The position numbers and the translations under genes are program-made. A stretch of DNA of 64,000 nt. It comes from Geobacillus subterraneus (GTDB taxonomy: Bacteria > Bacillota > Bacilli > Bacillales > Anoxybacillaceae). Positions 2,660 through 22,398 of the stretch are shown piece after piece. Under the pieces are notes generated by a model that did no database searches, was not told the origin of the DNA, and saw nothing but the letters and a program-made list of their open reading frames with translations. Where the stretch lies: assembly GCF_001618685.1 (NCBI RefSeq), contig NZ_CP014342.1, forward strand, positions 1,674,001-1,738,000, given 5' to 3'. Within the stretch, counting starts at the first letter, position 1. Each line of letters starts with the position of its first letter.

Positions 2660-2677
2660 ATACTAACCGGTTGGTAT
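2660..2677. promoter_or_regulatory. TetR-type operator, copy 1 (18-bp palindrome)
   Basis: ATACTAACCGGTTGGTAT is an 18-bp inverted repeat centred on CCGG with one mismatch. It differs by one base from the perfect palindrome at 22381-22398. It starts 12 bases downstream of a -10 box, so a bound repressor would cover the transcription start. The TetR protein encoded at 17606-18190 is the obvious candidate ligand-sensing repressor (inference). Confidence 0.75.
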
Positions 2678-2689
2678 GTTTTTTCTTTT

Positions 2690-2718
2690 ATTATACACTC
2701 TATTTAAAATATTTCAAA
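2690..2718 (-). promoter_or_regulatory. SigA-type promoter of the SDR-SDR-crotonase cluster
   Basis: On the minus strand, TTTGAA (2713-2718) lies 17 bases from a perfect TATAAT (2690-2695). The palindromic operator follows directly. Confidence 0.7.
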
Positions 2719-2880
2719 TGTTTTTATCAATCCGTCGAGGAGTCTCTGCTTTCGGGTGGGGCAGAAGGGGAAACGGAGGTGTTATTCCGCTCGCTTCGCG
2801 GAAGGGGCGCTTGAATCGTAAGCAGGGAAGGCAGTGAGAGCCATCAGCAAGAAGAGAAGCCCGCATTGTTGGCTTCCCGT

Positions 2881-3189
2881 TCATTGGTCCATAAGATCAG
2901 CAGCGCCGCCATCGCCGCGTCCTTCGTCTTCTCCCCCGCCCTCTTGAGACTCGAAAAACGACCGGCAAACCGCATCGAGCGATTGCAGCCGCTCAATCAA
3001 TCCTTGCAAATCGCACGTATGGAACGTGTCGCTCAGTTCTCGTCTCTCTTCCGTCACCAAGTATAAATGAATTTCCATGCATCCGTCCCAGCGGACGTTG
3101 GCATCAAGCCAGCCATCTTCGCTTTCTAGTTCGAGCGCAGCCGTCTCTCCGTCTCCGTTCTCATGCTTCGCCTTGATGACCCATACCAT
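2881..3189 (-). CDS. Hypothetical acidic protein
   Basis: A 102-residue protein, not recognised. The N-terminal 60 residues look like a compact beta-rich domain (WVIKAKH..., MEIHLYLVTEERREL), followed by a helix and an acidic, glycine-rich tail (GGGEDEGRGDGG). ATG follows an AAAGGCGGGG stretch. It lies 45 bp downstream of another small unknown gene on the same strand, so the two are probably cotranscribed. No transmembrane segment or signal peptide is seen. Confidence 0.55.
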   Translation of the reverse strand: MVWVIKAKHENGDGETAALELESEDGWLDANVRWDGCMEIHLYLVTEERRELSDTFHTCDLQGLIERLQSLDAVCRSFFESQEGGGEDEGRGDGGAADLMDQ

Positions 3190-3233
3190 TCCTACCCCGC
3201 CTTTCTTCCCCCTGCCTTGATGATCATTGACGC

Positions 3234-3512
3234 TTATCCTCGTTCCTGTTCCGCTCCTATTCCTAAAATCGGGGAGCCGGTTGACGTATGTTCGTTCACC
3301 CAGCGGAGCGCCGCATCCACTACAGCTTCAGCGTTAGGAAGCGCAGCGCGGTGCTCAATGACCCAGTTGAGTCCATCTTGCGGATCTAGGTTGCGCGCTA
3401 CACATTCCGCTAAAAACGCTTGAACACAAGCCGTGTCGCTACGCTCCCACGCTCCGCATTGGCGGCGCCAAATCGCCTCCACCATCGCGCAGTTGCCCCC
3501 TAAATCGGCCAT
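3234..3512 (-). CDS. Hypothetical protein
   Basis: A 92-residue protein of unknown function. It is rich in Trp, Cys and Ala, mostly helical in appearance, with no membrane segment. AAAGGAGG lies seven bases before the ATG at 3512; a GTG one codon earlier sits too close to it. The strong ribosome site supports a real gene. It is the first of a two-gene unit with the 102-residue protein downstream. Confidence 0.55.
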   Translation of the reverse strand: MADLGGNCAMVEAIWRRQCGAWERSDTACVQAFLAECVARNLDPQDGLNWVIEHRAALPNAEAVVDAALRWVNEHTSTGSPILGIGAEQERG

Positions 3513-3553
3513 CACGTTGCCTCCTTTCCATTACAATAATATAGATGTGAAAG

Positions 3554-3573
3554 CCCACTTTTTTAGAGGTGGG
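3554..3573. repeat. Small CCCAC/GTGGG hairpin, possible IS200/IS605-type relic
   Basis: A short hairpin (CCCAC, ten-base loop, GTGGG) in the 190-bp gap between the unknown genes and the 68-residue ORF. Subterminal hairpins of this kind border IS200/IS605-type elements, but no tnpA or tnpB lies nearby. Treat it as a possible relic only. Confidence 0.25.
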
Positions 3574-3707
3574 ATGAAACAGGCCTCATCGTTTATAGTA
3601 TCCCTCAGGCGACTGTTGCCGCTCTAAAAAGAACTGGGTGGAAAGGATAACATTTCCATTCGTATCCCGTCGGGAAACAGCGATACTAAAAATGGAGGTG
3701 CATTGGC

Positions 3708-3914
3708 ATGATGGATCGCTGGGATGAATCAGGCGCTGTGTTTGGCGTTCCGCGCTATACTCCGGGAACCGGCCTTCCTGATGAAATGAGCCCGATTCGC
3801 GATATCGCCCGCGGCTTTGAAAACGGCCGGCCGCCGGTCATTGAAATCACGCCCGCTGACGGCCGTCAACAGGCGGACGATATCGATTTTCCGCCCGTTG
3901 ACCGGGCGTTTTGA
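3708..3914 (+). CDS. Small hypothetical protein
   Basis: A 68-residue Pro- and Asp-rich soluble protein (DRWDESGAVFGVPRYTPGTG at the start, FPPVDRAF at the end). It is not recognised. TGGAGGTG lies about nine bases before the ATG. A strong hairpin follows its stop at 3931-3967, so it is probably a monocistronic gene. Confidence 0.5.
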   Translation: MMDRWDESGAVFGVPRYTPGTGLPDEMSPIRDIARGFENGRPPVIEITPADGRQQADDIDFPPVDRAF

Positions 3915-3930
3915 AGCGTTAGGTAGCAAA

Positions 3931-3967
3931 AAAGAGGATGTCACGCCGTTTGGCGGACATCCTCTTT
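3931..3967 (+). terminator. Strong hairpin, probable terminator after the 68-residue ORF
   Basis: A 12-bp perfect stem (AAAGAGGATGTC with GACATCCTCTTT) is topped by a CGCC/GGCG inner stem and a GTTT loop. The T-run on the plus strand is inside the stem; the minus strand has six Ts after the stem. An ATG at 3938 lies in this stem and is unlikely to be a real start of the next gene. Confidence 0.6.
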
Positions 3968-4075
3968 GCGTTGATGGCGCTATGCGGTGATGGCGCTATG
4001 CGGGTTGGCATGACAGTCCATTTGCTGCAATATGATAGTAACAAGCGATTGCAGCAGGCGGAGGAGGGAAAGCTA

Positions 4076-5332
4076 TTGGGCGTTCGCATTCCGGAGGTAA
4101 CGATCAAGTGTCCCGATCCAACGATTGAACGTGTGCTTTCTGCCATCCACCAACTATGGGGGCAATTAACGAAAACAAGTCCGCCTTATTCCAAAGGAGA
4201 GCTGTTTTCTCTTCCTTTTCCTTATGTCGTTCCTGGCGGAGTATACCAGCAGCTGTTTTACTGGGACAGTTACTTCATTATTTTAGGGCTGAACGTTTCG
4301 AAACTATACGAACTCGCTAGAGGCGTTGTGAACAATTTCTTTTATGAATTGAAAACATTTGGCATGATCCCTAACAGTTCTGAACTCGCCCACTTAAGCC
4401 GCTCGCAGCCCCCGTTGTTGACGTCGATGATCGAAGAGGTATGGCGCGGAGACAAAGAGTGGCTCCGTTTGGCTTATAAATGGGCGAAAATCGAATACAA
4501 GGAAGTCTGGATGGACAAAAACACTCATTATCATCCCGATATTGGCCTCAATAAGTACTACGATCGTTTGGAGTCGATGCTGCGGGTAAAGGGAGAAGCG
4601 TATCTCCATTTTGATGAGGTGTACATCCCACCTGCGTTTTGGCATGAGAGAGTAGAAGCGGAATCAGGATGGGACTACACCGGCCGCTTTCATCGGCAAT
4701 GCGGCTATTTCATCCCGGTTGATCTCAATGCCTTGCTTTATAAGTACGAAACCGACTTAGCAGCGTTTGCCCGCCTGCTATCCCTAGAGAACGAAGCGAA
4801 CCAATGGGAACAAGCCGCCCGACGGCGAAAAGATTTGATGAATCGGTATTTATGGAACGAGCCGCTCGGTATGTATTTTGATTATCATTTCCCCAGTGGG
4901 CGGCAGCACCGCTATTATTCGTTGGCTGCCTTTTATCCGCTATGGGCCCGGGCTGCCTCCAAACGGCAGGCGGCCGAAATAGTCCGGCACTTGCCTTTGT
5001 TCCTTCAGCCTGGGGGACTGGCCGCCTCCAATATCCAAACCGGATTTCAATGGGATTTTCCTAACGGCTGGGCTCCGCTCCACTGGATCGTCATTAAAGG
5101 TCTACAAAATTATGGATATCACCGCGAGGCGCAGGAGATCGCCCGCCGCTGGATCCGGCTTTGTACGCACGTGTATGTAGAAACCGGCAAATTATACGAA
5201 AAATACAATGTTGTCGATATGAGCATCCGCACGGTTGGCCGCTACCCTTCCCAAGAAGGATTCGGCTGGACGAATGCGGTTTACGCCAAAATAGCGGTCG
5301 ATCTCCTCGGATGCACAGTCTGCTTGCGCTAA
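4076..5332 (+). CDS. GH37 trehalase-like glycoside hydrolase
   Basis: A 418-residue protein, probably cytoplasmic since no signal peptide is seen. It resembles GH37 alpha,alpha-trehalase: PGGVYQQLFYWDSY matches signature 1 loosely, QWDFPNGWAP matches signature 2, ESGWD holds the likely catalytic acid Asp, EKYN holds the likely base Glu, and SQEGFGWTNAV is conserved near the end. Signature 1 has lost its usual Arg (PGGR) and Glu, and the NRSYYLSRSQPP region reads SSELAHLSRSQPP, so substrate preference may differ. GAGGAGGG sits eight bases before TTG 4076, which fixes the start better than the ATG at 3938 inside a terminator. It is shorter than E. coli TreF. Confidence 0.8.
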   Translation: MGVRIPEVTIKCPDPTIERVLSAIHQLWGQLTKTSPPYSKGELFSLPFPYVVPGGVYQQLFYWDSYFIILGLNVSKLYELARGVVNNFFYELKTFGMIPNSSELAHLSRSQPPLLTSMIEEVWRGDKEWLRLAYKWAKIEYKEVWMDKNTHYHPDIGLNKYYDRLESMLRVKGEAYLHFDEVYIPPAFWHERVEAESGWDYTGRFHRQCGYFIPVDLNALLYKYETDLAAFARLLSLENEANQWEQAARRRKDLMNRYLWNEPLGMYFDYHFPSGRQHRYYSLAAFYPLWARAASKRQAAEIVRHLPLFLQPGGLAASNIQTGFQWDFPNGWAPLHWIVIKGLQNYGYHREAQEIARRWIRLCTHVYVETGKLYEKYNVVDMSIRTVGRYPSQEGFGWTNAVYAKIAVDLLGCTVCLR

Positions 5333-5365
5333 GCGCGCAACCTAGAGGCGGCGGAAGCAGCCGGC

Positions 5366-6151
5366 TTAGCGGCGTACGGACACCCACGGCCGCCCGCCTT
5401 CCCAATGAACGCGAATATGGAGGCGAAACGCTTCGGAAAGCTGCTCATCGGTCAGCACTTCCTCTTTTCGCCCAGCGGCGGCAATGCGGCCGTCTTGCAA
5501 GAGCAGCACATGGGTGATCGATTCCACAATCTCTTCAATATAATGAGTGACGTATAACACATGGCACGGCCGAGCAGCGATCTGTTCGATCAAGGAAAGC
5601 ATCTCTTCACGCGCCAATAAGTCTAGGCCGACAGTCGGCTCGTCCAAGATCAGCAGCTTCGGATTCGTCATCAGCGCCCGGGCGATCAACGTTTTTCGCT
5701 TTTCCCCTTGTGACAGCGTCGCATACCGTTTTCCTTTGATGGCTTCGAGGCGGAACGATTCGATGAACGATTCCGCCCTAGCCCAGTCATCGTCGGTAAC
5801 AGCATCATACAGGCCAATCGTCGCAAACTTGCCGCTGAGGATGACATCTTCAACCGTCTCGGTTTGCAGCGTGTCGTGAAATTGATCAAGGAGCGAGCTG
5901 CTCACAAACCCAATATGACGTCGCAACTCCGGCAGACTCGCCTGTCCAAACCGATAGCCTAATACTTCCACTTCCCCGCGCGTCGGGTATTGATAGCCTG
6001 TGACGATATTAAGGAGCGATGTTTTCCCGGAGCCATTGAGGCCAAGAATCGCCCATTGCTCGCCTTCTTTTACTTCCCAGTTGACCCCGTGCAAAATCGT
6101 GCGCGTCCCCCGCATCCATGACACGTTGCGCATGCGGATGATGACGGTCAT
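5366..6151 (-). CDS. ABC transporter ATP-binding protein (YlmA-like)
   Basis: A 261-residue ABC ATPase: Walker [10 protein letters not shown] near 38, signature LSQGEKRK near 150, Walker B LLILDEPT near 170, and a His switch in YVTHYIEE. No permease gene is adjacent. It resembles stand-alone ATPases of the YlmA/ModF type. Its start codon overlaps the stop of the nitric oxide synthase gene (ATGA at 6148-6151), so the two are translationally coupled. The partner protein is unknown. Confidence 0.88.
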
Positions 6152-7287
6152 TGTACCTCTCCCCTTTGTTGTTCGTATGGACGATCCTGATAGAAAAAAT
6201 TGGGCAACATGGTCGTATTGTCATAATTCCGATGAAAAATGTGCGTTGTCGCCGGAGACAAAGGCGGAATCAGCCATGTCCAGTCGCCGGTGACATGGCG
6301 GCCAGCTGCGTTCTCTTGCTGTTCAAACAACTGAAATTGGCGCGCGGCGGTATGATGATCAACGATGCTGACGCCCGCCTTTTTGTAGGAATATAAAACA
6401 GCGATATTCAATTCGACCAACGCCTTATCTTTCCATAATGATGCGTTGGAGCTGGTGTCAAGCCCCATGCAAGAGGCCACTTTCGGAAGCATGTTGTAGC
6501 GATTGTCATCGGCAAAATTGCGGGCGCCAATCTCCGTGCCCATGTACCACCCATTAAACGGTGCGGCCATATAGCTAATGCCACCGATCTCTAGACACAT
6601 ATCTGAAATAATCGGGACGGCGTACCATTTTACCTGCAGATCACGAAACCACGGAAACTGCGGATGTTCAATTGGCACCTCCAGCACCAATTCTTTCGGA
6701 ACCGGTGTCCAAACGGGCTTCTGGCCGCCTACCTGGATCACCAAAGGCAACACGTCAAAGGGCGTCTTTTCCCCCTTCCATCCAAGCTGTTCACAGGCAC
6801 GAGTGAAAGTGAGAGAGGATGGGTCACCGATCGTCCCTTCTTCGGTTTCATAACCGGCATAACGAATCAGTTGATGATTCCAAATGCGCACTTCCCCATT
6901 TGGACGGAAGAGCGTGATCGCAGGCCGGATTTTCCCCCCATTGGTCGCAAACTCAATATGATGGAATAGATAAGAAAACACCTCGTCGACGGTCGCCGCC
7001 TCTCTCGCATCAATGACATGGAGCGATTGCCAAAACAGGCGACCGATGCAACGGTTGCTATGCCGCCAAGCCATCTTAGCCCCATAGCTTAACTCTTCGT
7101 ACGTATGGCTATATGTGCCGGTTTGTTCCACTTCCCAACGGATTTCGTTCAACCGCCGCTTCATTTCTTTCTCACTTTTTCCAAGCTCTCGATAGCTTAC
7201 TGTGATAAACTGTTCTGCCTTTTTCATCAACTTCACATCATGCTGTCTAACCCTTGTTTGATTCATATCATTCTCGATGTTTACCAT
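6148..7287 (-). CDS. nos: Nitric oxide synthase oxygenase
   Basis: A 379-residue bacterial NOS oxygenase domain, which oxidises L-arginine to NO and citrulline using a borrowed reductase. The proximal heme thiolate Cys lies in [14 protein letters not shown]. The substrate and pterin region is recognisable in [15 protein letters not shown] and the C-terminal [17 protein letters not shown]. There is no reductase domain, as usual in Bacillus and Geobacillus. ATG 7287 has TGGAGG 13 bases upstream; an earlier ATG at 7347 would overlap the preceding gene more. It lies between a small membrane protein gene (20-bp overlap) and an ABC ATPase (4-bp overlap). Confidence 0.93.
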
Positions 7288-7444
7288 ATATGCTCTTTTT
7301 CCTCCACTTTCGATCGATTGGACTTTTGGTGGCCATTCCAACCCCAATCAAGAAACAAATTCCCCCGACCCACCAAATTTGCTCGATAAACATCGAAATC
7401 GCCAAAAAAATGAGCGCAAAACCAAGCAGTCGACGGATCGTCAT
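7268..7444 (-). CDS. Small two-helix membrane protein upstream of nos
   Basis: A 58-residue protein with two hydrophobic segments ([14 protein letters not shown] and [15 protein letters not shown]) and a basic tail. GGGGAG lies before the ATG. Its end overlaps the start of nos by 20 bp, so it heads a three-gene unit with nos and the ABC ATPase. Function unknown. Confidence 0.6.
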
Positions 7445-7712
7445 GATTCTCTCCCCTTTTCCCTGCAAGGAGCGCCCTCCCATCGTGCAAACGGAATAGT
7501 GGACAGTGCTTTAGGGCGCCTTTCCCACGGGGCAATTGAAAATGGAGCAACGCTCCCGTCCCTATTGTAGCAGATGCTTCCGAAAGAAAATAGAGAAAGT
7601 CTTTGAGCGAAACAACCCGCTTTAGACGGCTTTCTCCTTCGGCGCGCATCCATGGGCTCAAGTTCACGCAGCCGAGTGATCTTCTCTCCGGCATCTGTCG
7701 GATGTTGTTTCA

Positions 7713-8032
7713 CTAGTTCGGCTGTTCTTGAACAGACACTAGCTTCCGAACACCTTCCATTCCTCGTTTCTGCGCGACAAATCGCGATCCTAACTGGTGG
7801 TTGTTTTTAAGGTCTTGGCGATCTCATTTCCAGCGTGAAACCGGCAACGAGCCAGCTCCGCCCCGCGTTCTTCGTTCACTGCGCCGACCGGTAAATCCTC
7901 TGTATGGACATAAGTGTCAATCCAAGCGTAAAGCGATGGAAGAACAATTAGATCGAAAGCCGAGATGGATGCGGCCCAGTTGGTCTTGAGATGTTTCAAA
8001 TCTTTCGCATAAATGCGCCATGCCTGTTTCAC
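7713..8032 (-). pseudogene. Remnant of a YhgE/Pip-family membrane protein
   Basis: The N-terminus (MKQAWRIYAKDLKHLKTNWA, then LPSLYAWID) matches the start of YhgE/Pip ABC-2-like membrane proteins, which are normally several hundred residues long. The copy appears shortened internally (the segment before VGAVNEERGA), then runs into a stop after KTLK. A shift of one base restores a further reading, NNHQLGSRFVAQKRGMEGV, to a stop at 7713. The rest of the gene is absent. This is decayed coding sequence, not a short functional gene. Confidence 0.65.
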
Positions 8033-8121
8033 TTTGATCCACTTCTTCTTTCGAGTCGATCATGCTATTGTTAGTATGAGCGGATCACGGAAAACGAAAC
8101 CAACGTGGCCAGTCCAGCTGT

Positions 8122-8556
8122 TCATTTGCGGAAAAAAAGCCAAAGCGCCAAAAACAGAAAACCTATGGCGGCGAAGCGCGTCAGATCGAACGGGATGCGC
8201 TGCCCGCCGAACAAACCAAAATGGTCAACAATCGAACTCATCACGAGCTGCCCGGCAACCACGGCCATCAACGAATTGGCAACGCCGACTTTCGGAACGA
8301 TGAGCACCATAACAAACACGTAAAAGGCGCCGAGAATGCCGCCGATCAGTTGCCATTTCGGCACGGAAAACATGGCGATGAGCTCGCCTTTTCCGAAAAA
8401 CAATTGCACCAAAAACAACACGATCGTCCCGATCAAAAACGAAACGAACGATCCTTCCAACACCCCGACCCGTCTCCCAAGGCCGCCATTCACCCCCGCC
8501 TGTATGGAGACGGCCATCCCGGCCGCTAAAGCCATCGTCATCCATAACCACTTCAT
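8122..8556 (-). CDS. DMT-type transporter, DUF606/YdcZ family
   Basis: A 144-residue integral membrane protein with about five transmembrane helices. It looks like the YdcZ/DUF606 half-size drug/metabolite transporter family: MAVSIQAGVNGGLGR near the start is typical, as is the VGVANSLMAVVAGQLV segment. Such proteins usually act as dimers or pairs; no partner is beside it. ATG follows a GGGGAGAGAC-type site. Substrate unknown. Confidence 0.8.
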   Translation of the reverse strand: MKWLWMTMALAAGMAVSIQAGVNGGLGRRVGVLEGSFVSFLIGTIVLFLVQLFFGKGELIAMFSVPKWQLIGGILGAFYVFVMVLIVPKVGVANSLMAVVAGQLVMSSIVDHFGLFGGQRIPFDLTRFAAIGFLFLALWLFFRK

Positions 8557-9221: not shown

Positions 9222-9246
9222 CCAAACGTCCGCCAGGCATCAAACA

Positions 9247-10449: not shown

Positions 10450-10518
10450 GGATTCTGCTCCTTTCGTTCACGAGATGGTCATGCTACAATCATATCATCA
10501 TTCACGAGAGGAGAGAAG

Positions 10519-11025: not shown

Positions 11026-11026
11026 C

Positions 11027-11054
11027 AGCCCCCTTGCGCCTCAGGCAGGGGGCT
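11027..11054 (+). terminator. Hairpin after queT
   Basis: A GC-rich stem (AGCCCCCTTG with CAGGGGGCT) begins two bases after the queT stop codon. The T-run behind it is weak (CGCTTCATT), so termination may be partial. Confidence 0.5.
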
Positions 11055-12394: not shown

Positions 12395-12400
12395 TCCCAT

Positions 12401-12845: not shown

Positions 12846-14045
12846 TTATTTCTTTAGCTCGATCGGCACAACTTTGCCATTTTCCACTGCTGCAACAATA
12901 ATTTTTGATTCAAAGCCGCCGTCATCGCCAACCTTCGGAACGACATACACTTGCTTGTCTTTCGGGATGTTTTTCAACCCTTCATTCATATGTTCGCGAA
13001 TAGCGGCGGGATCATCGACCGTGCCAGCCGCCTTCATCGCTTCGACAAAGGCGTAAAGAGCCAAGTAGTTATAGGCAGACTCCGAGCTTGCTTCGGCATT
13101 GTACTTCGCCCGGTAGTTTTCCACAAACTGCGGGGCTCCCGGCTCTTTCGACTCAACGAGCGGCATGACGCCGATCGCGCCCTCAAGCATCTCGTAAGAG
13201 CCGACGACCCGCTTCATTTCATCCAACTTCGCCTGGTCCATGACAATAAAGCCGCCTTTAAAGCCAAGTTCGCGCGCCTGTTTCACCACTTTCGCCGTCG
13301 GCTCCGACGGTCCGCCGATAAACAAGACATCCGGCTTTTCTTTTAACGCGTTCGTGATGATCGTGAAGAAATCGGTGTCTTTCGTAAAGTCAATTGATGT
13401 GTTATAGACCACTTCTCCGCCTTGCTTTTCCCAATATGGCAACAGTTTTTCCGTCCAGTCTTTCCCGTATTGCGTCGCTGTCGGCAAGACAGCCAGCTTT
13501 TTACCAAACCGCTTCATCACATAATCGGTAAATGTCGGAATGTAGCCATCATAACGCGGCGGGATGCGGATCGTCAGCTTGTTGCCGGTCTGTGTGATTT
13601 TCGGCTCACTCGTATAGGCCGCGATAAGGAAATTGTCCGTTTGGTTGAACACTTGCAACGCCATGACCCCACCGCTGTGCGGAGTGAAAATGATCGGCGT
13701 ATGATGTTCTTGGACAAGCCGTTTCGCATTGGCGGCTGTTTCATTTGGCAAATATTTATCATCTAACGACACCACATTGATTTGATAGGTCTTTCCGTTG
13801 ACTTCAAACCCGCCGTTTTTATTGATTTCGTCCGCCGCCATCTTCACGCCGTTTAACGTCCGTTCCCCGTAGTAGGCGGCCGGACCGCTAAGCGGTCCGC
13901 TGTAACCGATATTGACGACGTTGTCGCCTCCACCTCCATTACCGCTTTTGGCATTATTGTTTGTTGTCGGGCTGTTGCATGCCGCAAGCATCAACGCCAT
14001 GACGGCCGTCATCATGGCCGCGATCGGCCATTTTCTTTTTTTCAT
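12846..14045 (-). CDS. ABC transporter substrate-binding lipoprotein (LivK-type)
   Basis: A 399-residue periplasmic-binding-type lipoprotein. The signal peptide MKKRKWPIAAMMTAVMALML ends in lipobox LAAC, followed by a Thr/Asn/Gly-rich linker. The mature part is a type I (Leu/Ile/Val) binding protein: NIGYSGPLSGPAAYYGE, GVKMAADEINKNGGF and a C-terminal VVPKVGDDGGF. ATG 14045 follows GGGGGGAG. It is the last gene of the operon and lies 131 bp behind livF. Such proteins also bind aromatic, short-chain and dicarboxylic acids. Given the beta-oxidation neighbours, a carboxylic acid is more likely than an amino acid (inference). Confidence 0.88.
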   Translation of the reverse strand: MKKRKWPIAAMMTAVMALMLAACNSPTTNNNAKSGNGGGGDNVVNIGYSGPLSGPAAYYGERTLNGVKMAADEINKNGGFEVNGKTYQINVVSLDDKYLPNETAANAKRLVQEHHTPIIFTPHSGGVMALQVFNQTDNFLIAAYTSEPKITQTGNKLTIRIPPRYDGYIPTFTDYVMKRFGKKLAVLPTATQYGKDWTEKLLPYWEKQGGEVVYNTSIDFTKDTDFFTIITNALKEKPDVLFIGGPSEPTAKVVKQARELGFKGGFIVMDQAKLDEMKRVVGSYEMLEGAIGVMPLVESKEPGAPQFVENYRAKYNAEASSESAYNYLALYAFVEAMKAAGTVDDPAAIREHMNEGLKNIPKDKQVYVVPKVGDDGGFESKIIVAAVENGKVVPIELKK

Positions 14046-14106
14046 TCCGCTCCCCCCTATTTTTATTCTAAAATATATTTGGATGAATAAGTGCCGCGAC
14101 CGTGGT

Positions 14107-14117
14107 TCACCTCCTTT
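14107..14117 (-). promoter_or_regulatory. Strong Shine-Dalgarno without a matching gene before livK
   Basis: AAAGGAGGTGA lies in the 131-bp leader between livF and livK. No long gene starts from it. The overlapping GTG at 14110 opens only 15 codons, ending near 14064. It may set up a leader peptide or a ribosome standby site for the abundant binding protein; it may also be chance. Confidence 0.3.
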
Positions 14118-14176
14118 CAATGCAGGCGCATCGCTTGCTTTCGCCCGCGAAATACGCCATTCGCGGCAATCGCTTG

Positions 14177-14884
14177 TCATGTTCCAATGTACGCCTTGCG
14201 GACATCGTCGTTGGCGAGCAGCTCCTCCGCTGTTCCTGAAGCAACGATCGTTCCATTTTCAAACACATAGCCGTGATGAGCGATGGACAACGCCGCATGG
14301 GCGTTTTGTTCGGCGAGCAAAATCGTCGTCCCCTCTTGATTGATTTGTTTAATCGTGGCAAACATTTGCTCGACAATGAGCGGAGCGAGTCCAACCGACG
14401 GTTCATCAAGCAAGAGCACCGCGGGACGCGACATTAGCGCGCGGCCGATGGCAAGCATTTGCTGCTGGCCGCCGCTTAGCGATCCGGCTGGCTCGTTTCG
14501 TTTTTCATGCAAAATCGGGAACAGCTCGTATACATGTTCCAGCGAGCGGCGGATGCCTTCCTTATCTTTTCGGTGAACATACGCGCCCATAAGCAAGTTT
14601 TCGTATACGCTCATGCGGACAAACAGCTTGCGCCCTTCGGCGCATTGCACGATGCCGCGCTGAACGATCCGGTCAGGCGGCAGCGAGTCAATGCGTTCGC
14701 CATCAAGGCGGATTTCCCCTTGCACCGGTTTATGCAGCCCGCTGATCGTGCGAAACAGCGTGCTTTTCCCAGCCCCGTTGGCGCCAAGCAACACCGCGAT
14801 TTCCCCCGGCTTAACGAAAAACGTCACATCGCGAATCGCCGTGAAGCTGCCGTAGCGGACAGATACGTTCGTCAACTCAAGCAA
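14177..14884 (-). CDS. ABC transporter ATP-binding protein (LivF-type)
   Basis: A 235-residue ATPase of the branched-chain importer class. Walker A GANGAGKST near 34, LSGGQQQML signature, Walker B VLLLDEPSVGLAP (the SVGLAP ending is typical of LivF) and ILLAEQNAHAAL switch region. It overlaps livG by 8 bp. It pairs with LivG to drive the LivH/LivM permease. Confidence 0.92.
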   Translation of the reverse strand: MLELTNVSVRYGSFTAIRDVTFFVKPGEIAVLLGANGAGKSTLFRTISGLHKPVQGEIRLDGERIDSLPPDRIVQRGIVQCAEGRKLFVRMSVYENLLMGAYVHRKDKEGIRRSLEHVYELFPILHEKRNEPAGSLSGGQQQMLAIGRALMSRPAVLLLDEPSVGLAPLIVEQMFATIKQINQEGTTILLAEQNAHAALSIAHHGYVFENGTIVASGTAEELLANDDVRKAYIGT

Positions 14885-15641
14885 CGGTGCTCCCCCCTAG
14901 ATACGCTTGAATGACCGCCTCGTTGTTTTGCACTTCTTCCGGCGTCCCTTCGGCAATTTTTTCGCCGTAATTGAGCACCATAATGCGGTCAGCGATTTTC
15001 ATAATCATCGACATTTTATGTTCAATGAGACAAACTGTCAGGCCGCCCTTGACCATTTTGACAATCAGCTCTTCCAACCCTTCCGTTTCGTCCGGGTTGA
15101 CGCCGGCAGCCGGCTCGTCAAGCAGGACGAGTTCCGGATCGGTCGCCAAGGCGAGCGCAAACGCCACCCGCTTCTTCTGCTCCTGCGACAGGTTAGCAAC
15201 GAGCCGATCCGCCACATCGGTGAGCCCAACAAAGTCGAGCACTTCCATCGCCTTTTCTTTGCATGCCTGTTCCTCGCGGCGGTGCCGTTTTGTGCGCAAA
15301 ATGGCGTCAAACACATTCGATGTGGTGCGCAGCCGATGGCCGATGATGACGTTGTCCATCACCGTCGACTGTTCAAACAAATGGGTCGTTTGAAACGTGC
15401 GGGCGATGCCGAGCTTCGCCCGTTCATTCGCCGGCAGGCGGGTAATGTCGCAGCCTTTAAACGTAATCGTGCCGGATGTCGGCCGGTGCAAGCCGCTAAT
15501 TAAATTGAAAAACGTCGATTTCCCGGCGCCGTTCGGGCCGATGATGGCGTTTACTTTCCCCTGTTCGACGGAAAACGTGACGTCATTGACCGCCAGCAAC
15601 CCGCCAAACCGTTTCGTCAACCGTTCGACGTGCAAAAACAT
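14877..15641 (-). CDS. ABC transporter ATP-binding protein (LivG-type)
   Basis: A 254-residue ATPase. Walker A GPNGAGKST near 36, IARTFQTTHLF (LivG-type Q-loop), LSQEQKKRV signature and Walker B VLLDEPAAGVNP, followed by LIEHKMSMIM. The C-terminal AYLGG ending is usual for LivG. It starts 2 bp after the livM stop and overlaps livF, so the four transport genes are tightly coupled. Confidence 0.92.
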   Translation of the reverse strand: MFLHVERLTKRFGGLLAVNDVTFSVEQGKVNAIIGPNGAGKSTFFNLISGLHRPTSGTITFKGCDITRLPANERAKLGIARTFQTTHLFEQSTVMDNVIIGHRLRTTSNVFDAILRTKRHRREEQACKEKAMEVLDFVGLTDVADRLVANLSQEQKKRVAFALALATDPELVLLDEPAAGVNPDETEGLEELIVKMVKGGLTVCLIEHKMSMIMKIADRIMVLNYGEKIAEGTPEEVQNNEAVIQAYLGGSTVA

Positions 15642-15643
15642 GG

Positions 15644-16684
15644 TTATCCCTCCTCTACGTGCCGTTCGCTCCGTCCTTGGCGCGAGGCCGCCAGTTCAGC
15701 AGCGGTCCGGTTCGCCCTCTGTTCAAGGCGGCGCACCTCTGCACGTTTCGCCTGATAACGGATGAAGCCGCCGGCAATGCCGTGCGGATAAAAGATGATC
15801 AAAAGCGTCAACACCGGGCCAAAAATGAGCATTCGGTAGTCTTGCAAAAATTGCAGCTGCTGGGATAAAAACGTAATGAGCAGCGTGCCGACGACCGGTC
15901 CGGCAAGCGTGCCGATGCCGCCGACAAGCAAGTACGTTAAAAAGTCAAACATGACGGTGACGTATGCGATATCCGGGCCGAGAAAGCGAATGAATGACGC
16001 ATACAGCGCTCCGGCGAGCGACGTAAAAAAGACGGACAGCACAAACGAGGCGAGCTTGTTTTTCATCGTCGAGATGCCAAGCGTCAACGCGAGCTCTTCA
16101 CTGTTGCGAATGGCGATATACGTCCTTCCCGTCAGCGAATCAACGAGCCGGTACATCACAAACATGACCGCAAGCAAGAAAAACAAAACCAAATAATATT
16201 GGGCGACCGGCGTCTGAAACGACAGCGGTCCGATGTCGCCTGGCGCCGGAATGCCGATAAAGCCGCGCACTCCGCCGGTCAAGCTGTCCCATTTATCAAT
16301 CACTAAATAAATGATATACCCGACACATAGCGTATAAATGGCGAAAAAATGCTCTTTCGTCCGCAAGGCGACAAGGCCGATCACCAGGCCTAGCAGCGAT
16401 GTGAATGCGCACGAGAGTACGAACGCCCACCAAAACGGAAGCCCAACTTTCACGGTCAAAATGCCGAGCGTATAGGCGCCAACGGCAAAAAATCCAGCGT
16501 GGGCAAGGGACAAATAACCGGTATAGCCAGCAAATAAGTTCAACCCGTAAACGGCGATCATCCAAATAAAGGAGATCGTCATCATGTGCAAGTAATAGCC
16601 GTTGGTCACAAGCAGTGGGAAGGCGAGTGCCAACGCCGCGAGAACAGCAAGCCATAGGCGTCGTTTTTCGAAAACGGCCATCAA
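15644..16684 (-). CDS. Branched-chain-type ABC transporter permease (LivM-type)
   Basis: A 346-residue integral membrane permease with about ten helices. It matches LivM: YGLNLFAGYTGYLSLAHAGFF near residue 45, GGVRGFIGIPAPGDIGPLSF, and the EAA-like segment near GGIGTLAGPVVGTLL. A charged C-terminal tail (about 30 residues, Arg- and Glu-rich) is longer than usual. It overlaps livH by 4 bp. Confidence 0.9.
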   Translation of the reverse strand: MMAVFEKRRLWLAVLAALALAFPLLVTNGYYLHMMTISFIWMIAVYGLNLFAGYTGYLSLAHAGFFAVGAYTLGILTVKVGLPFWWAFVLSCAFTSLLGLVIGLVALRTKEHFFAIYTLCVGYIIYLVIDKWDSLTGGVRGFIGIPAPGDIGPLSFQTPVAQYYLVLFFLLAVMFVMYRLVDSLTGRTYIAIRNSEELALTLGISTMKNKLASFVLSVFFTSLAGALYASFIRFLGPDIAYVTVMFDFLTYLLVGGIGTLAGPVVGTLLITFLSQQLQFLQDYRMLIFGPVLTLLIIFYPHGIAGGFIRYQAKRAEVRRLEQRANRTAAELAASRQGRSERHVEEG

Positions 16685-17544
16685 TGTCCCTCCTTGGCAA
16701 ACAGTCCGTTCGGTTTGACCGTTAAAATGATGACAAGAATGACAAAAGCAATAATGTCTTTATAGTCATTTGACACGTATGTCGCCCCTAAGCTTTCACT
16801 AAATCCTAAAATATAGCCGCCGACAATCGCGCCAGGAATGCTCCCCATGCCGCCGAGAATAATGATGACGAACGCTTTCAAGATGACGAGATGACCCATG
16901 CCGGGAAACACGAGGTTGATCGGCGAAGCGAGCGAGGCGGCGAGCGCTGCCAAACCGCCGGAAAGAAGAAACGTCATCATGGCGACTTTGTTCGTGTTAA
17001 TGCCGACTAAATTCGCTCCTTCGCGGCTTTGTGCCATTGCGATGATCGAAGCACCGATGAACGTCTTTTTCAAGAAGAGGTAAAGCAAGATCATGATGAC
17101 AACAGTGGATGCGATGATGAGGATGCGTTGAACCGTGAGCGTCAAGCCGAAAACGGTGATGACATTGCCGTATGGCGTCGGCATCGTTTGATAGTCCGCC
17201 CCCCAGACGTATTGGGCGAACGCTTCCAAAAACAGCAAAATGCCGATCGCCGCAATTTTATCATGAAGCGGCGGCGCGTCGCGAAGCGGATAAAACACCA
17301 ACCGCTCCATCAAGACGCCAAGCAGCCCGACCGCCACCATCGACACGACAATGGCAAGCCCATACGGCAGCCCAGCTTGACTCATGGCGGTGAGCGTGAC
17401 ATAACCGCCCATCATATACAGCGCGCCGTGGGCAAAGTTTGGGATATGCAAAATGCCGTAGACGAGCGTTAAGCCTAAGGCGACAAGGCTGTAAACGCTT
17501 CCAACCGTCAGGCCGTTTAACAGCTGCTGGATAAACAATTCCAT
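16681..17544 (-). CDS. Branched-chain-type ABC transporter permease (LivH-type)
   Basis: A 287-residue membrane permease with about eight helices. It matches LivH: QLLNGLTVGSVYSLVALGLT at the start, GILHIPNFAHGALYMMGGYV next, and FVIIILGGMGSIPGAIVGG toward the end. ATG 17544 follows GGGGGATCGGG; the frame is open to 17568. It follows the tetR gene by 62 bp and begins the transport half of the operon. Confidence 0.9.
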   Translation of the reverse strand: MELFIQQLLNGLTVGSVYSLVALGLTLVYGILHIPNFAHGALYMMGGYVTLTAMSQAGLPYGLAIVVSMVAVGLLGVLMERLVFYPLRDAPPLHDKIAAIGILLFLEAFAQYVWGADYQTMPTPYGNVITVFGLTLTVQRILIIASTVVIMILLYLFLKKTFIGASIIAMAQSREGANLVGINTNKVAMMTFLLSGGLAALAASLASPINLVFPGMGHLVILKAFVIIILGGMGSIPGAIVGGYILGFSESLGATYVSNDYKDIIAFVILVIILTVKPNGLFAKEGH

Positions 17545-17605
17545 CCCGATCCCCCTTATCTCGTGCATTGGAAGCGGACGAGCCGCCCTAACGGTTCGAT
17601 GGAGT

Positions 17606-18190
17606 CTACTCTTTTGGCCGTTCCTCCGCCCGAATGCCGTTTAAAATTAAGTCGACGTAAATGTCGGTTAATTCCTCTTCCGAAACGCCTTTGCCCGGTT
17701 GAAACCAGTAATAGCTCCAATTCGTGATGCCAAGCAGGCCGAACGTGATCATTTCCGCATGAAGCGACGGCTTAAATTCGCCGCAGGCGACCCCTTCTTG
17801 AATGAGCTGTTCATACTGCTTGCGGAACGCCCGCCGCTTCCCGAGGATTTCCTCCAAATGGTCATCGGCCAAGTGCCGCATCTCGCGGAAGAAAATGCGG
17901 GCGCTTTTCTTCCGCGTGCGAATGTTGCGAATCACCATATAAACGATCGCATGCAACTTTTCTGTGCAGCTCTTCTCCGGCTCCTGCAACAGGCGTGTCT
18001 GCTGGTCAAGCAAATCCTCGATATAGGAGATGCATATATCGCGCAGCAGTTCTTCTTTGCTTTTGTAATAGTAATAGAACGCTCCTTTTGTTGCGCCGAC
18101 CGCTTCAACGATTTCCTGTACGGACGTTTCTTTAAACCCTTTGCGTTCAAACAGCTCAATGCCGGCTTCCATCAGTTTTTCTTTCATCAT
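17606..18190 (-). CDS. TetR/AcrR family transcriptional regulator
   Basis: A 194-residue TetR-type repressor. The N-terminal helix-turn-helix is clear (GIELFERKGFKETSVQEIVE, then GATKGAFYYYYKSKEELL). The C-terminal ligand domain is helical and not assignable. GGAG lies seven bases before ATG 18190; a TTG at 18211 that overlaps the thiolase stop lacks a ribosome site. It sits inside the operon between thiolase and livH, so it likely controls its own operon, and by the shared palindromes (2660-2677, 22381-22398) probably also the SDR cluster. The ligand may be an acyl-CoA of the pathway (inference). By eye it does not resemble B. subtilis FadR beyond the HTH. Confidence 0.9.
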   Translation of the reverse strand: MMKEKLMEAGIELFERKGFKETSVQEIVEAVGATKGAFYYYYKSKEELLRDICISYIEDLLDQQTRLLQEPEKSCTEKLHAIVYMVIRNIRTRKKSARIFFREMRHLADDHLEEILGKRRAFRKQYEQLIQEGVACGEFKPSLHAEMITFGLLGITNWSYYWFQPGKGVSEEELTDIYVDLILNGIRAEERPKE

Positions 18191-18207
18191 CGATTGTCTC
18201 CATGCGC

Positions 18208-19377
18208 TCAAACTCGTTCAATGATCGTCGCGATTCCTTGGCCGCCGCCGATGCACGCCGTAATGAGGGCGTATGTCCCGCCGCGGCGCTTTAGTTCATA
18301 CACGGCTTTCGTAATCAAAATCGCGCCCGTCGCGCCGAGCGGATGGCCGTGGGCGATGGCGCCGCCATTGACGTTCACTTTTTCCGGGTTCATCTCAAGT
18401 TCGCGGTCACAGGCGATCACTTGTGCGGCAAACGCTTCATTGATTTCGATGATGTCCATCTCATCAAGCGTCAGTCCAGCTTTTTCAAGCACCTTTCTCG
18501 TCGCCGGCACCGGACCGATGCCCATAATGTTCGGATCGACCCCGGCGACCGCATGGGCGCGGATGACGGCAAGCGGCGTCAAGCCGAGCTGCTCCGCTTT
18601 TTCCCGCGACATGACAACGAGTGCTGCAGCGGCGTCATTGAGCCCTGAACTATTCCCCGCTGTCACCGTGCCGCCTTCTAAAAACGCCGGCGGCAGTTTC
18701 GCGAGCGCTTCCATCGTCGTGTTCGGGCGCGGGTGTTCATCTGTGTCAAAGACAAACGGCTCCCCTTTTTTCACCGGGACGGTAATCGGCACGATTTGTT
18801 CGGCAAACCGCCCTTCTTGCATAGCGCGCGCCATGCGCTGCTGGCTGCGCAAAGCGAAGGCGTCTTGTTCTTCGCGGCTGATGCCGTATTTTTTCACTAA
18901 ATTTTCTGCCGTGATGCCCATCGGCGGATCGCCAATCTCTTTTGGCGACAACTGCGATTTGCGGAAGCTTGGCGGCGTCGAGCTGTACGGTTTTTCCGGG
19001 CGGTCCATCAAATACGGCGCACGGCTCATGCTTTCCACTCCGCCGGCGATATAGACGTCCCCATCGCCGGCCCAAATGGCTTGCGCCGCTAAATTGACGG
19101 CGTTAATGCCTGAACCGCATTGACGGTCGACGGTCAGCCCGGTCAACTCAAGCGACAGCCCCGTCTTAAGCGCCGTCAGCCGGGCAATGTTGCCGCCGCC
19201 GCTTAAGACATTGCCCATGATGACATCATCAACAAGCTCCGGACCGATGTTGGCCCTCCGCATCGCTTCTTTGATTACTTCCGCTCCGTAAACGTGCGCC
19301 GGCAACGTCGCCAAGGCGCCCCCTTGGCGGGCGATGGCCGTTCTTACGGCGGATACAATGACGGCATCCCGTTTCAT
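18208..19377 (-). CDS. Thiolase family protein (acetyl-CoA C-acyltransferase)
   Basis: A 389-residue thiolase, cleaving 3-ketoacyl-CoA with CoA to give acetyl-CoA, or the reverse. The nucleophilic Cys is in [11 protein letters not shown] near residue 86, with [22 protein letters not shown] (catalytic His) and the second Cys in CIGGGQGIA. All key residues are present. AGGAGG precedes ATG 19377; the GTG at 19383 is too close to it. The stop overlaps the upstream edge of the regulator gene. Confidence 0.93.
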
Positions 19378-19479
19378 TGTCACTCCTCCTTATCTTTTTT
19401 CAACCGGACGCAACTTGCGCGCCTTTTGAAGCGGGGGAGGACGATCATCCCCCGCTTGCTCCTTGGGCGGAAGAGCCCT

Positions 19480-19884
19480 TTACTCATACAGCGAAAAGAC
19501 CGCTTCGCCTTTGATGACTTCCTTGCCGTGCTGGTTGACGGCGGCGACCATAAACCGGATCGCTTTGTCATCCTTTTCTTTGACCGTTGCTTTTAACGTG
19601 ACGACATCGTTTAAAAACACCATTGATTGAAAACGGACGAAATAATCTTGGACAAACCCTTCCTCGTAATACGGGGTGAACAGCTTCGCCAAGTTGCCCA
19701 TCGTCCACATGCCGTGGGCGATAATCCCCGGCAGGCCGGCTTTTTTCGCTTCGTCGTCGATCGTATGAATCGGGTTGTAGTCGCCCGACGCTCCGGCATA
19801 TTTGATTAAGTCAAGCCGGGATACAGGCGGAAGCGTCACCTCGGGAAGCGACTGCCCGACTTGCCATTCGCGAATCGTCGTCAT
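19480..19884 (-). CDS. MaoC/hotdog-fold hydratase (C-terminal type)
   Basis: A 134-residue MaoC-like hotdog protein. The hydratase motif is seen as YAGASGDYNPIHTIDDEAKKAG (Asp and His catalytic positions), followed by GIIAHGMWTMGNLA. It probably hydrates an enoyl-CoA. It overlaps by 4 bp the preceding gene, whose product has the complementary MaoC N-terminal-type fold. The two likely form one heteromeric hydratase. Confidence 0.88.
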   Translation of the reverse strand: MTTIREWQVGQSLPEVTLPPVSRLDLIKYAGASGDYNPIHTIDDEAKKAGLPGIIAHGMWTMGNLAKLFTPYYEEGFVQDYFVRFQSMVFLNDVVTLKATVKEKDDKAIRFMVAAVNQHGKEVIKGEAVFSLYE

Positions 19885-20330
19885 ACGCTCATCGCCTTTC
19901 TAACCGCCTCATTGATAATGATCGTCGAGGTGGAGGTAAATAAGAGATTCCCGTCAGCGTCTTCGCCGTTGTTGGCGATCACTAAAAAGCCGAGCTGGCC
20001 CATGCTGCTTTGTTTTTCGTAATAGTCTTTGACCTCTGCATAGCAGTACAGCTCTTCGCCGACAAACAGCGGGCGCTTATAATGGAAGCGCTGCTCGCCG
20101 TGGATCAGTCCTTTTGCCGGCAATTTCAACCCTTCGATCACACCGTAGTCAAACACGCGCGGGAACGTCGGCGGCGCGATGTTACGCCCGTAGCGCGATC
20201 GTTTCCCTGTCTCTTCGTCCCAATAAATCGGGTTCAAGTCGCCGATCGCTTCGGCGAATTTTCTCACCGCTCCGCGCTCGACAACGTTTTTCACTTTCGC
20301 CGATCGTTTTCCGATATCATTTTGATACAT
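19881..20330 (-). CDS. MaoC-like dehydratase, N-terminal-domain type
   Basis: A 149-residue hotdog protein of the FAS1-like/MaoC N-terminal dehydratase type. It has AVRKFAEAIGDLNPIYWDEE near residue 22 and NIAPPTFPRVFDYG near 50, but lacks the strict Asp/His pair of the partner. In related systems such subunits bind the acyl tail while the partner does catalysis. It overlaps the partner gene by 4 bp. Confidence 0.85.
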   Translation of the reverse strand: MYQNDIGKRSAKVKNVVERGAVRKFAEAIGDLNPIYWDEETGKRSRYGRNIAPPTFPRVFDYGVIEGLKLPAKGLIHGEQRFHYKRPLFVGEELYCYAEVKDYYEKQSSMGQLGFLVIANNGEDADGNLLFTSTSTIIINEAVRKAMSV

Positions 20331-20348
20331 GACCCGTTCCCTCCGCCT

Positions 20349-21113
20349 TCAGCATTTCGGGCCGCCGGCGACATATAGCACTTGGCCGTTGACGAACGAT
20401 GATTGTTCGTCGGCGAAAAATGCGACCGCGTTGGCGATATCTTCCGGGCGGCCGCTTCGTCCGACCGGGATGGTGGCGACGCTTGCCTGAATGAGCTGCT
20501 CAAACGAAATGCCAAGCCGCTCGGCGGTCGCTTTCGTCATATCGGTTTCAATGAATCCCGGCGCGACGGCGTTCGTTGTAATGCCGAACTTGCCGAGCTC
20601 AATCGCCAACGTTTTCGTAAACCCTTGAATGCCGGCTTTCGCCGCCGAATAGTTCGCCTGGCCGCGGTTGCCGAGCGCCGAGGTCGATGAAACGTTGATG
20701 ATGCGGCCGTATCCTTTTTCGACCATATATTTTTGCGCGGCGCGGGCGCAATAAAATGCCCCTTTCAAATGAACGTCCATGACCGTTTGCCAGTCGTCGT
20801 CCGTCATTTTAAACAGCAAGTTGTCGCGGATGACGCCGGCATTGTTGACGAGAATATCGAGCGAGCCGAACCGTTCGACCACTTCTTGAATCGCCGTTTC
20901 CACTTGTTCGCGGTCAGTGACGCTCACCACTTTGGCGTAAACGTCATACCCGTTTTCCCGCAGCTCGGCTGCTGTTGCTTCAAGCGCCTCCGCGTTTAAG
21001 TCGATGAACGCCACTTTGGCCCCTTCTTCCGCAAAGCGGGTAACAATGGCCTTGCCGATGCCGCGGCTCCCCCCCGTCACAAACGCCACTCTTCCTGCAA
21101 ACCGTTGGCTCAT
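20349..21113 (-). CDS. SDR family oxidoreductase (FabG/PhaB-like)
   Basis: A 254-residue classical SDR, probably a 3-hydroxyacyl-CoA dehydrogenase here. TGGSRGIG for cofactor, NNAGVIRDNLLFKMTDDDW (a FabG/PhaB-type segment), Ser in NVSSTSALGNRGQ and YSAAKAG for catalysis, and the C-terminal VAGGP. It lies 36 bp after the acyl-CoA dehydrogenase and 18 bp before the hydratase pair. With dehydrogenase, hydratase and thiolase this fills the third step of a beta-oxidation cycle. Confidence 0.9.
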   Translation of the reverse strand: MSQRFAGRVAFVTGGSRGIGKAIVTRFAEEGAKVAFIDLNAEALEATAAELRENGYDVYAKVVSVTDREQVETAIQEVVERFGSLDILVNNAGVIRDNLLFKMTDDDWQTVMDVHLKGAFYCARAAQKYMVEKGYGRIINVSSTSALGNRGQANYSAAKAGIQGFTKTLAIELGKFGITTNAVAPGFIETDMTKATAERLGISFEQLIQASVATIPVGRSGRPEDIANAVAFFADEQSSFVNGQVLYVAGGPKC

Positions 21114-21149
21114 GTTTTTTCTCCTCCCTTTTCGGTAACGCTTTCATTT

Positions 21150-22331
21150 TTAGAGAAACTGCCCAAGCTTGACGTGTCCTTTAATTAAGTTGCGGGCGAT
21201 AATCAGCCGTTGAATTTCATCGGTGCCATCGTAAATGCGCCATAACCTCGCCTCACGATACCAGCGCTCGATCGGCATCTCTTTCGTATAGCCCATGCCG
21301 CCATGAATTTGCATGACGCGGTCAACGACGCGGTTGCCCATATTCGCGCCAAACAGTTTCGCCATCGAGGCCAAATGGCGGTTGTCTTCCCCTTGGTCGA
21401 GCGTGAATGCCGCATTGAGCACAAGCCATTTTGCCGCTTCAATTTCCACTGCCGAATCAGCGATCATCCATTGAATCGCCTGTCGTTCCGCGATCGGCTT
21501 GCCGAACGTGACGCGCTCTTTCGCGTAATCGATCGCCATTTGCAACAGCCGCTCCGCCGCTCCAACCGCACGGGCGCCGACGACCCAGCGGGCGTAGCCG
21601 ATCCACTCAAGGCCGAGCTTGTAGCCGTGGTGCAGCTCGCCTAAAATGTTTTCTTCCGGCACGCGCACGTTTTCAAAAATCAAGCTGGCCGGTGTTGACG
21701 GTCCCATCGTATGTATCGGCTCAGAGCGCCAGCCCATGTCGCGGTCGACGATAAAGCACGTTACCCCTTCGCGCCCGTTTGTCGCCTGATGCCGCCGTTT
21801 GTCGGTAATGGCGATGACCATAACGAAATCAGCGTCATTGCCCCCGGTGATAAACGTTTTTTCCCCATTTAGCACCCATTCGTCCCCGTCTTTGACCGCC
21901 GTCATTTTAATGTTGCGCGTATCCGACCCTGCGCCCGGCTCGGTCATGGCAAAGCACGATTTTTTCTCGCCGTTGATCGTCGGGATTAAATATTTTTTCT
22001 TTTGTTCTTCATTGGCGTAATACAAAATGTTGTCCGCCGACCCGCCAAACTGGAACGGAACGAGCGTTTTTGCCACCTCCATGAGCACAATCGCCTGCAT
22101 GACATGGCCGAGATTCGCGCCCCCGTATTCCTCCGGCGTGTTGATCCCCCAAAAACCTGCTTCCTTCGCCTTTAATTGCAGCTCTTTTAATTTCTCCGGC
22201 GCAAGCCCCGGCTTCCCTTCCCGCTCATTGCGCAAGACGTCATTTTCTAGCGGCATCAATTCTTTTTCGACAAACTTGCGAATCGCCTTTTGAACCATGC
22301 GCTGCTCATCGGTTAAGCGCAAATACATCAT
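21150..22331 (-). CDS. Acyl-CoA dehydrogenase
   Basis: A 393-residue flavoprotein dehydrogenase, first enzyme of the operon. It carries CFAMTEPGAGSD (FAD and substrate signature 1), VFITGG-type TFITGGNDADF, QIHGGMGYTKEMPIERWYRE (signature 2) and the C-terminal YDGTDEIQRLIIARNL. The frame is open to 22436, but that would cover the promoter and operator. GGGGGG precedes the twin ATGs at 22331/22328, and MYLRLTDEQRMVQ is a typical N-terminus. The substrate chain cannot be told from sequence. Confidence 0.92.
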   Translation of the reverse strand: MMYLRLTDEQRMVQKAIRKFVEKELMPLENDVLRNEREGKPGLAPEKLKELQLKAKEAGFWGINTPEEYGGANLGHVMQAIVLMEVAKTLVPFQFGGSADNILYYANEEQKKKYLIPTINGEKKSCFAMTEPGAGSDTRNIKMTAVKDGDEWVLNGEKTFITGGNDADFVMVIAITDKRRHQATNGREGVTCFIVDRDMGWRSEPIHTMGPSTPASLIFENVRVPEENILGELHHGYKLGLEWIGYARWVVGARAVGAAERLLQMAIDYAKERVTFGKPIAERQAIQWMIADSAVEIEAAKWLVLNAAFTLDQGEDNRHLASMAKLFGANMGNRVVDRVMQIHGGMGYTKEMPIERWYREARLWRIYDGTDEIQRLIIARNLIKGHVKLGQFL

Positions 22332-22380
22332 TGTCCCCCCTGTTTTCGTTGCACTTTGAAACGAAATCCCACTCCCACAA

Positions 22381-22398
22381 ATACCAACCGGTTGGTAT
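22381..22398. promoter_or_regulatory. TetR-type operator, copy 2 (perfect 18-bp palindrome)
   Basis: ATACCAACCGGTTGGTAT is a perfect 18-bp palindrome nine bases downstream of the -10 box, covering the likely transcription start of the eleven-gene operon. It matches the site at 2660-2677 at 17 of 18 bases. The operon encodes a TetR protein, the likely binder. Confidence 0.8.

Follow-up and report, generated by a model that had tools for sequence, protein, structure and literature searches.

PfmR (TTHB023) of Thermus thermophilus is described as a TetR protein that represses fatty acid and phenylacetate genes, for which a first consensus, TACCGACCGNTNGGTN, and a later one, preferred by its authors, were published (PMC7022988; this and the other articles given by PMC number are cited from excerpts). 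Further systems were taken for comparison from Bacillus, where the TetR-fold protein FadR (YsiA), a regulator of fatty acid degradation, was solved with stearoyl-coenzyme A (stearoyl-CoA; titles of 3whb and 3whc), from Rhodococcus, where the TetR repressor QsdR controls a lactonase operon (qsd) induced by gamma-caprolactone (PMC6476934), and from Pseudomonas putida, where kinase and acyl-CoA dehydrogenase genes stand together with an acyl-CoA synthetase gene in one operon, lva (PMC12440821). 4-Hydroxyacyl-CoAs are reported substrates of the mammalian proteins ACAD10/11 (PMC12440821; PMC11342911). The present analysis was carried out on a 64-kb stretch of Geobacillus subterraneus DNA (NZ_CP014342.1, positions 1,674,001 to 1,738,000), called the window below, and concerns two nearly identical palindromes, each of which follows the promoter of a catabolic gene cluster. 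As judged by genome comparison, the pair is the mark of a conserved regulon. The regulator class of the operator resembles PfmR, and the regulon would be a further case of that class. The palindrome is read here, with a probability of roughly three in four, as an operator for a TetR repressor resembling PfmR, which would control a scattered regulon of acyl-CoA catabolism.

The elements at the two promoters are as follows.

2660-2677, no strand: putative operator palindrome of the cluster of two short-chain dehydrogenase/reductase (SDR) genes and a crotonase gene; same place at matching promoters elsewhere
2690-2695, minus strand: -10 box TATAAT of the first cluster; 17-base spacer to TTTGAA at 2713-2718
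22381-22398, no strand: putative operator palindrome of the eleven-gene operon; same place at matching promoters elsewhere
22408-22413, minus strand: -10 box TATAAT of the eleven-gene operon; 17-base spacer to TTGTAC at 22431-22436

The original prediction, made from the letters of the window, had placed both palindromes at these coordinates with 17 of 18 bases alike, and both the coordinates and the identity were verified; ATACTAACCGGTTGGTAT at 2660 is one base short of perfect symmetry and ATACCAACCGGTTGGTAT at 22381 is perfectly symmetrical. Both controlled clusters, and likewise their promoters, are on the minus strand. TATAAT had been put about ten bases ahead of each palindrome with a 17-base spacer, and the actual distances are 12 and 9 bases, respectively, with the spacer as claimed; the -35 boxes were read by eye, and the first of them is weak. 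TATAAT is conserved in 12 of 12 first-cluster (SDR 1) promoters compared across genomes, and among the 18 second-cluster promoters compared one (L195) has TAAAAT instead. Both palindromes recur at the matching promoters in other genomes. At up to 3 mismatches, the two palindromes are the only matches in the window, and 100 shuffles of the window gave a mean of 0.05 matches, the largest number being 2.

That no other copy existed, as had been noted, is right for the window, but further copies were found genome-wide. The own genome (3.47 Mb, one contig, C1) was searched with the reversed pattern as a control, and 7 places were obtained at up to 3 mismatches versus 2 for the control. The proposed genome-wide search thereby bore fruit, with copies before another acyl-CoA operon and before two acyl-CoA synthetase genes. 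ATACTAACCGGTTAGTAT at C1:2316908 stands directly before an operon for an acyl-CoA dehydrogenase (AcdB), an SDR, a ligase, a second TetR protein (TetR B) and a kinase. The site at C1:1842925 stands before an acyl-CoA synthetase gene, the stop of which shares one base with the start of a lactonase gene (L009:6161-8823). A weaker site, C1:1246995, lies where a further acyl-CoA synthetase begins, and is backed by a 1-mismatch site before the homologue of that synthetase in a relative (G036). The other two places were rejected. C1:2025600 falls within the coding region of an acyl-CoA synthetase, and 8 places in relatives resemble it, all 3 fetched ones sitting inside the same synthetase gene, and these were taken for coincidences of the coding sequence; C1:113865 is a one-sided match within a long open reading frame (ORF). 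Ten-base cores found in addition, at C1:836283 and C1:2462264, were also rejected, as the likeness does not extend beyond the core, and the core alone is no commoner than its control (4 occurrences versus 5).

The first operon of the window probably starts with GTG at 2608, 51 bases from its palindrome, and the second contains eleven genes, the predicted number, which are closely packed, the gaps between them measuring -8 to 96 bases. Their genes are listed below.

1856-2608, minus strand: SDR dehydrogenase 1, probable GTG start at 2608
1016-1786, minus strand: SDR dehydrogenase 2
71-850, minus strand: crotonase / enoyl-CoA hydratase family protein
21150-22331, minus strand: acyl-CoA dehydrogenase AcdA, scanned from 22436
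20349-21113, minus strand: FabG-like SDR reductase
19881-20330, minus strand: MaoC/FAS1-like dehydratase subunit
19480-19884, minus strand: MaoC-like dehydratase subunit
18208-19383, minus strand: thiolase
17606-18190, minus strand: TetR-family protein A (TetR A; TetR_N and TetR_C_24), candidate repressor
16681-17568, minus strand: LivH-type permease
15644-16684, minus strand: LivM-type permease
14877-15641, minus strand: LivG-type ATPase
14177-14884, minus strand: LivF-type ATPase
12846-14180, minus strand: substrate-binding protein (Peripla_BP_6)

The conservation of the sites, their target genes and their co-occurrence with TetR genes were established by comparison, for which a family set of 41 genomes and an order set of 397 genomes were used with a motif threshold of up to 1 mismatch. 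In the family, the motif occurred in 28 of the 41 genomes and the reversed pattern in none; all 28 have TetR A or TetR B, and the 13 motif-free genomes have neither (best E 2e-34 or weaker). In the order, the motif occurred in 128 of 397 genomes and the reversed pattern in 8 (counted by eye). With at most 8 candidates per genome scored, a TetR closely related to TetR A (E up to 1e-38) was found in 127 of the 128 motif genomes versus 53 of the 269 others (Fisher p 3e-59, relatedness being ignored). Two matching palindromes have in this way led to a defined regulon in 128 of the 397 genomes and to a candidate pair of repressors. No published description of the operator in Bacillales was found among the matches listed from open-licence papers.

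Around distinct sites in other genomes, homologues were called from the best match in tblastn with the genes of this genome, which leaves orthology unproven, the SDR and crotonase families being large; by this measure, 101 of 111 sites are upstream of homologues of regulon genes. Within the family, 76 sites lie outside the own genome, of which 68 were tallied (the other 8 being 2 duplicates, 5 in-gene places and 1 site in G039), and 64 of the 68 are up to 380 bases upstream of such a homologue; three of the remaining four are inside one synthetase gene and one has no assigned gene. Outside the family, the fetched sites come from 28 of 117 motif genomes; of these 43 sites, 37 are up to 435 bases upstream of regulon homologues. 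Left out of the tally were locus L197, which is a duplicate, and sites that share the same surroundings (two of them in the family). The regulon had been said to fall if the motif were common away from acyl-CoA genes, and at these 111 sites it is not.

Of 34 loci, 18 (L090-L107) have a match that covers most of the protein; these were scanned, and a site at up to 2 mismatches was present in 15 and absent in L099, L105 and L106. In Metabacillus and Peribacillus (L103, L104, L107), a single motif heads one cluster in the 20-kb locus, the best matches of which are AcdB, the SDR of the AcdB operon (SDR B), the window thiolase, SDR 1, the ligase, TetR, the kinase, SDR 2, the crotonase, a quinone oxidoreductase and LivH; a shorter version of the cluster was seen in Priestia (L102), and a second site stands before AcdA and MaoC genes in similar genomes (L255, L257, L258, L261). 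The genes clustered in Metabacillus and Peribacillus correspond to three operons in the genome of the window, and all three carry the site. Elsewhere in the order, an operator copy straight after a TetR gene (L245:8906, L252:6001, L272:6001, L274:6001) perhaps belongs to an internal second promoter. One genome (G182) has seven sites at up to 1 mismatch, and two of its sites are 34 bases apart before a LivH-type gene (L277:9881 and 9915).

The protein encoded at 17606-18190, TetR A, had been implied as the regulator; it is still a candidate, but not the sole one, as its paralogue TetR B (C1:2312566-2313138) has a near-identical recognition helix and is encoded in a third operon that is itself preceded by the palindrome. 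Identity between the two proteins is 48% overall, higher in the DNA-binding part (70%) and lower in the ligand part (40%). The helix, T-K-G-[AT]-F-Y-Y-Y, hardly varies among 40 A and 59 B sequences (two long-branch rows were dropped from this comparison, and sequences with stops from it and from the tree). It is altered in the three sequences of another paralogue, TetR C (L030), and a different palindrome lies between TetR C and its operon; TetR C was therefore rejected as the regulator. That other palindrome, ACCGACTAGTYGGT, occurs twice there, before an operon resembling leucine degradation genes (L030:9181-9261, i.e. C1:1754180-1754260), and one more copy with 1 mismatch is at C1:1590463; at up to 2 mismatches it is rarer than its control (10 versus 28), and it possibly marks a sister regulon.

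The predicted structure of TetR A (mean predicted local distance difference test score 91) resembles that of PfmR (3vpr) with a template-modelling (TM) score of 0.90 at 1.8 Å, the highest TM-score among the 50 fold matches listed, which also include AibR with isovaleryl-CoA and Bacillus FadR with stearoyl-CoA. TetR A shares with the PfmR-like class the TetR_N domain, a related C-terminal domain and the fold, as well as scattered CoA-linked promoters bearing sites, one of them ahead of its own operon; PfmR likewise has several scattered CoA-linked targets including its own operon (PMC7022988). Of the 13 fixed positions in the first PfmR consensus, the 22381 site matches 12 and the 2660 site 11, and a PfmR site bound at 0.4 nM agrees with the 22381 site at 14 of 16 (PMC7022988). 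The differences are an identity of 24% between TetR A and PfmR, the different symmetry axis of the later consensus, targets that here include ACAD11-type and lactonase genes, and the presence of two paralogues; paired repressors and lactone entry would be the less usual aspects of the regulon.

The other known regulators are less close. TetR A scores 53 bits against NF053878, below the cut-off of 200 for Bacillus FadR. The operator known for Bacillus FadR is a different one. Thermus FadR was rejected as a match, its consensus being different (PMC5597230). For QsdR, the lactone itself is reported as the ligand (PMC6476934), and its structure (4ZA6) was absent among the 50 fold matches listed for TetR A, no direct pairwise comparison being made.

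The mechanism that we infer is as follows. The operator would consist of half-sites ATACYAACC and starts 9-12 bases after the -10 box in the two window promoters, so that binding of a TetR dimer would mask the transcription start and prevent initiation. The repressor would most likely be released by an acyl-CoA or a related pathway intermediate. Two operons of the scattered regulon would lie in the window, its other parts being the C1:2316908 operon, the synthetase and lactonase genes at C1:1842925 and probably the synthetase gene at C1:1246995. Of the earlier claim of one ligand-controlled regulon, the single regulon is borne out by comparison (the site tally and the co-occurrence), whereas ligand control is suggested by the TetR family membership and by related folds with acyl-CoA ligands in their PDB titles. 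Probably both TetR A and TetR B bind this operator, and in this genome they may compete for its copies or share them.

Several observations weigh against the reading of the palindrome as the operator of a PfmR-like repressor. The axis of the later PfmR consensus is two bases off, and both window sites fit it at 13 of 16 positions (PMC7022988). In the order, 53 of 180 TetR-positive genomes are without the motif at up to 1 mismatch, the level at which they were searched, and one genome (G090) has the motif and no TetR match. Outside the family, 6 of the 43 sites have no regulon homologue downstream, 4 of these directly following a TetR gene. C1:1246995 was found only at 3 mismatches, the level at which the reversed control has 2 places, and a degenerate 16-mer at up to 3 mismatches gave 46 places in the own genome versus 121 for its reversed control; weak matches of the motif are indistinguishable from chance, and the degenerate pattern, having fewer matches than its control, was rejected as a finder of weaker sites. 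Among the 21 family genomes bearing the synthetase of C1:1842925, 3 have no site at up to 5 mismatches and 1 has it only at 4. The ACAD11-type genes and the lactonase gene are outside the window, and the best solved match of the kinase is not ACAD11 but the unnamed phosphotransferase 9o56 (488 bits). Because of the weaker operator match with PfmR and the best match of the kinase, confidence in the reading was slightly lowered.

A chance or repeat-derived likeness of the palindromes, devoid of regulatory meaning, might be suspected of so short a motif, but is hardly credible given its rarity, its matching promoters in other genomes and its co-occurrence with a TetR gene. That TetR A alone controls both window operons, TetR B having a different operator and targets of its own, is unlikely. 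The gene of TetR A belongs to the second operon. In a tree with a midpoint root only, the A proteins make up a separate, supported clade (40 rows), in which other families are represented too, and in the ligand part A and B are 40% identical, less than six members of this clade from other families are to one another (47-60%); the DNA-binding parts, by contrast, at 70% are inside the 62-80% range of these members, the TetR B operon bears the same palindrome, and the recognition helix, which differs in TetR C, is near-identical in A and B. Six relatives (G010, G012, G015, G016, G017, G031) keep the site of the eleven-gene operon, which in G031 stands before an SDR gene, although TetR A was not found in them. 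The gene may have been missed in four of these, which are in 40 to 350 contigs, but G010 is in 3 contigs and G031 in one. Because the site is kept without TetR A, TetR B probably covers it in these relatives, and outside the family 26 of 28 fetched loci with a TetR match fit B better than A. Such apparent losses of one repressor would be natural cases of duplicated repressors dividing a shared operator set.

The role of the regulon under a PfmR-like repressor was considered from its target genes. The kinase and the acyl-CoA dehydrogenase homologous to ACAD11 are in one operon at C1:2316908, AcdB matching ACAD11 with 501 bits and the unnamed putative dehydrogenase 4hr3 with 504 bits, and the kinase matching the kinase part of ACAD11 with 156 bits. 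The lva operon has the same combination (PMC12440821) in another host, the likeness running via ACAD11 and not via a comparison with the lva proteins themselves, and no match was obtained here for the lva SDR step. The lactonase has PF02126 and matches 3f4c across all 326 residues. This entry is named phosphotriesterase or organophosphorus hydrolase in the PDB, and we take it to be the phosphotriesterase-like lactonase of Geobacillus, an enzyme best known from engineering work. The synthetase and lactonase genes are together in 18 of the 21 synthetase-bearing family genomes (one of the pairs, L290, being a partial match), and a site at up to 3 mismatches is within 400 bases upstream in 17 of the 21, the own genome included, about 0.005 being expected in the fetched loci.

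Since the ACAD11-like kinase and AcdB, and the lactonase with its synthetase, are among the targets, our best guess is that the regulon serves lactone and 4-hydroxy acid catabolism, completed by generic beta-oxidation enzymes. The pathway would run from lactone opening through acid activation and the phosphorylation and removal of the 4-hydroxyl group by the ACAD11-type kinase and dehydrogenase to beta-oxidation, the TetR A operon adding a Liv-type importer; bacterial ACAD11-type enzymes and a lactonase would thus be linked into one proposed route. It is quite possible, though less likely than not, that the regulon serves instead straight-chain, branched or isoprenoid fatty acids and that the ACAD11-like and lactonase genes act on other substrates: the acyl-CoA dehydrogenase, thiolase and ligases are generic, the NCBIfam matches of the regulon proteins are to broad families and mostly under the curated cut-offs, the sequence cannot give the substrate, AcdB fits ACAD11 no better than 4hr3, and for the kinase 9o56 is the better match. 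Against ordinary fatty acids are the some 500 bits of AcdB with ACAD11 versus 148 at most for all solved proteins listed other than ACAD11 and 4hr3, the match of the kinase to ACAD11 as well, the reported action of ACAD10/11, and the presence of the lactonase gene in the same regulon. A more specific proposal is tentative, and we would not count on it: two TetR paralogues with the same DNA specificity and diverged ligand pockets may share their operators, the scattered pathway for lactones and 4-hydroxy acids may open only when both are released (or either, if they compete), and the Geobacillus phosphotriesterase-like lactonase may be its native entry enzyme. The odds of this proposal were likewise slightly lowered, because of the same two points as above. 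As regards the literature, the words with 'tetr' in the excerpts of PMC2676291 were tetradecane and similar ones, and this lead was rejected; the passages of PMC3511530 held nothing on the regulon genes.

Elsewhere in the window, a protein with a nitric oxide synthase oxygenase domain is encoded at 6148-7347, and an ArsP-type permease ORF at 22918-23487 (189 amino acids) covers about half of the 294-position family model. Two identical copies of a 1521-base element with a reverse transcriptase/maturase of group II intron type are located at 49831-51351 and 62449-63969, and a 16-base pattern inside this element occurs at three further places in the genome.

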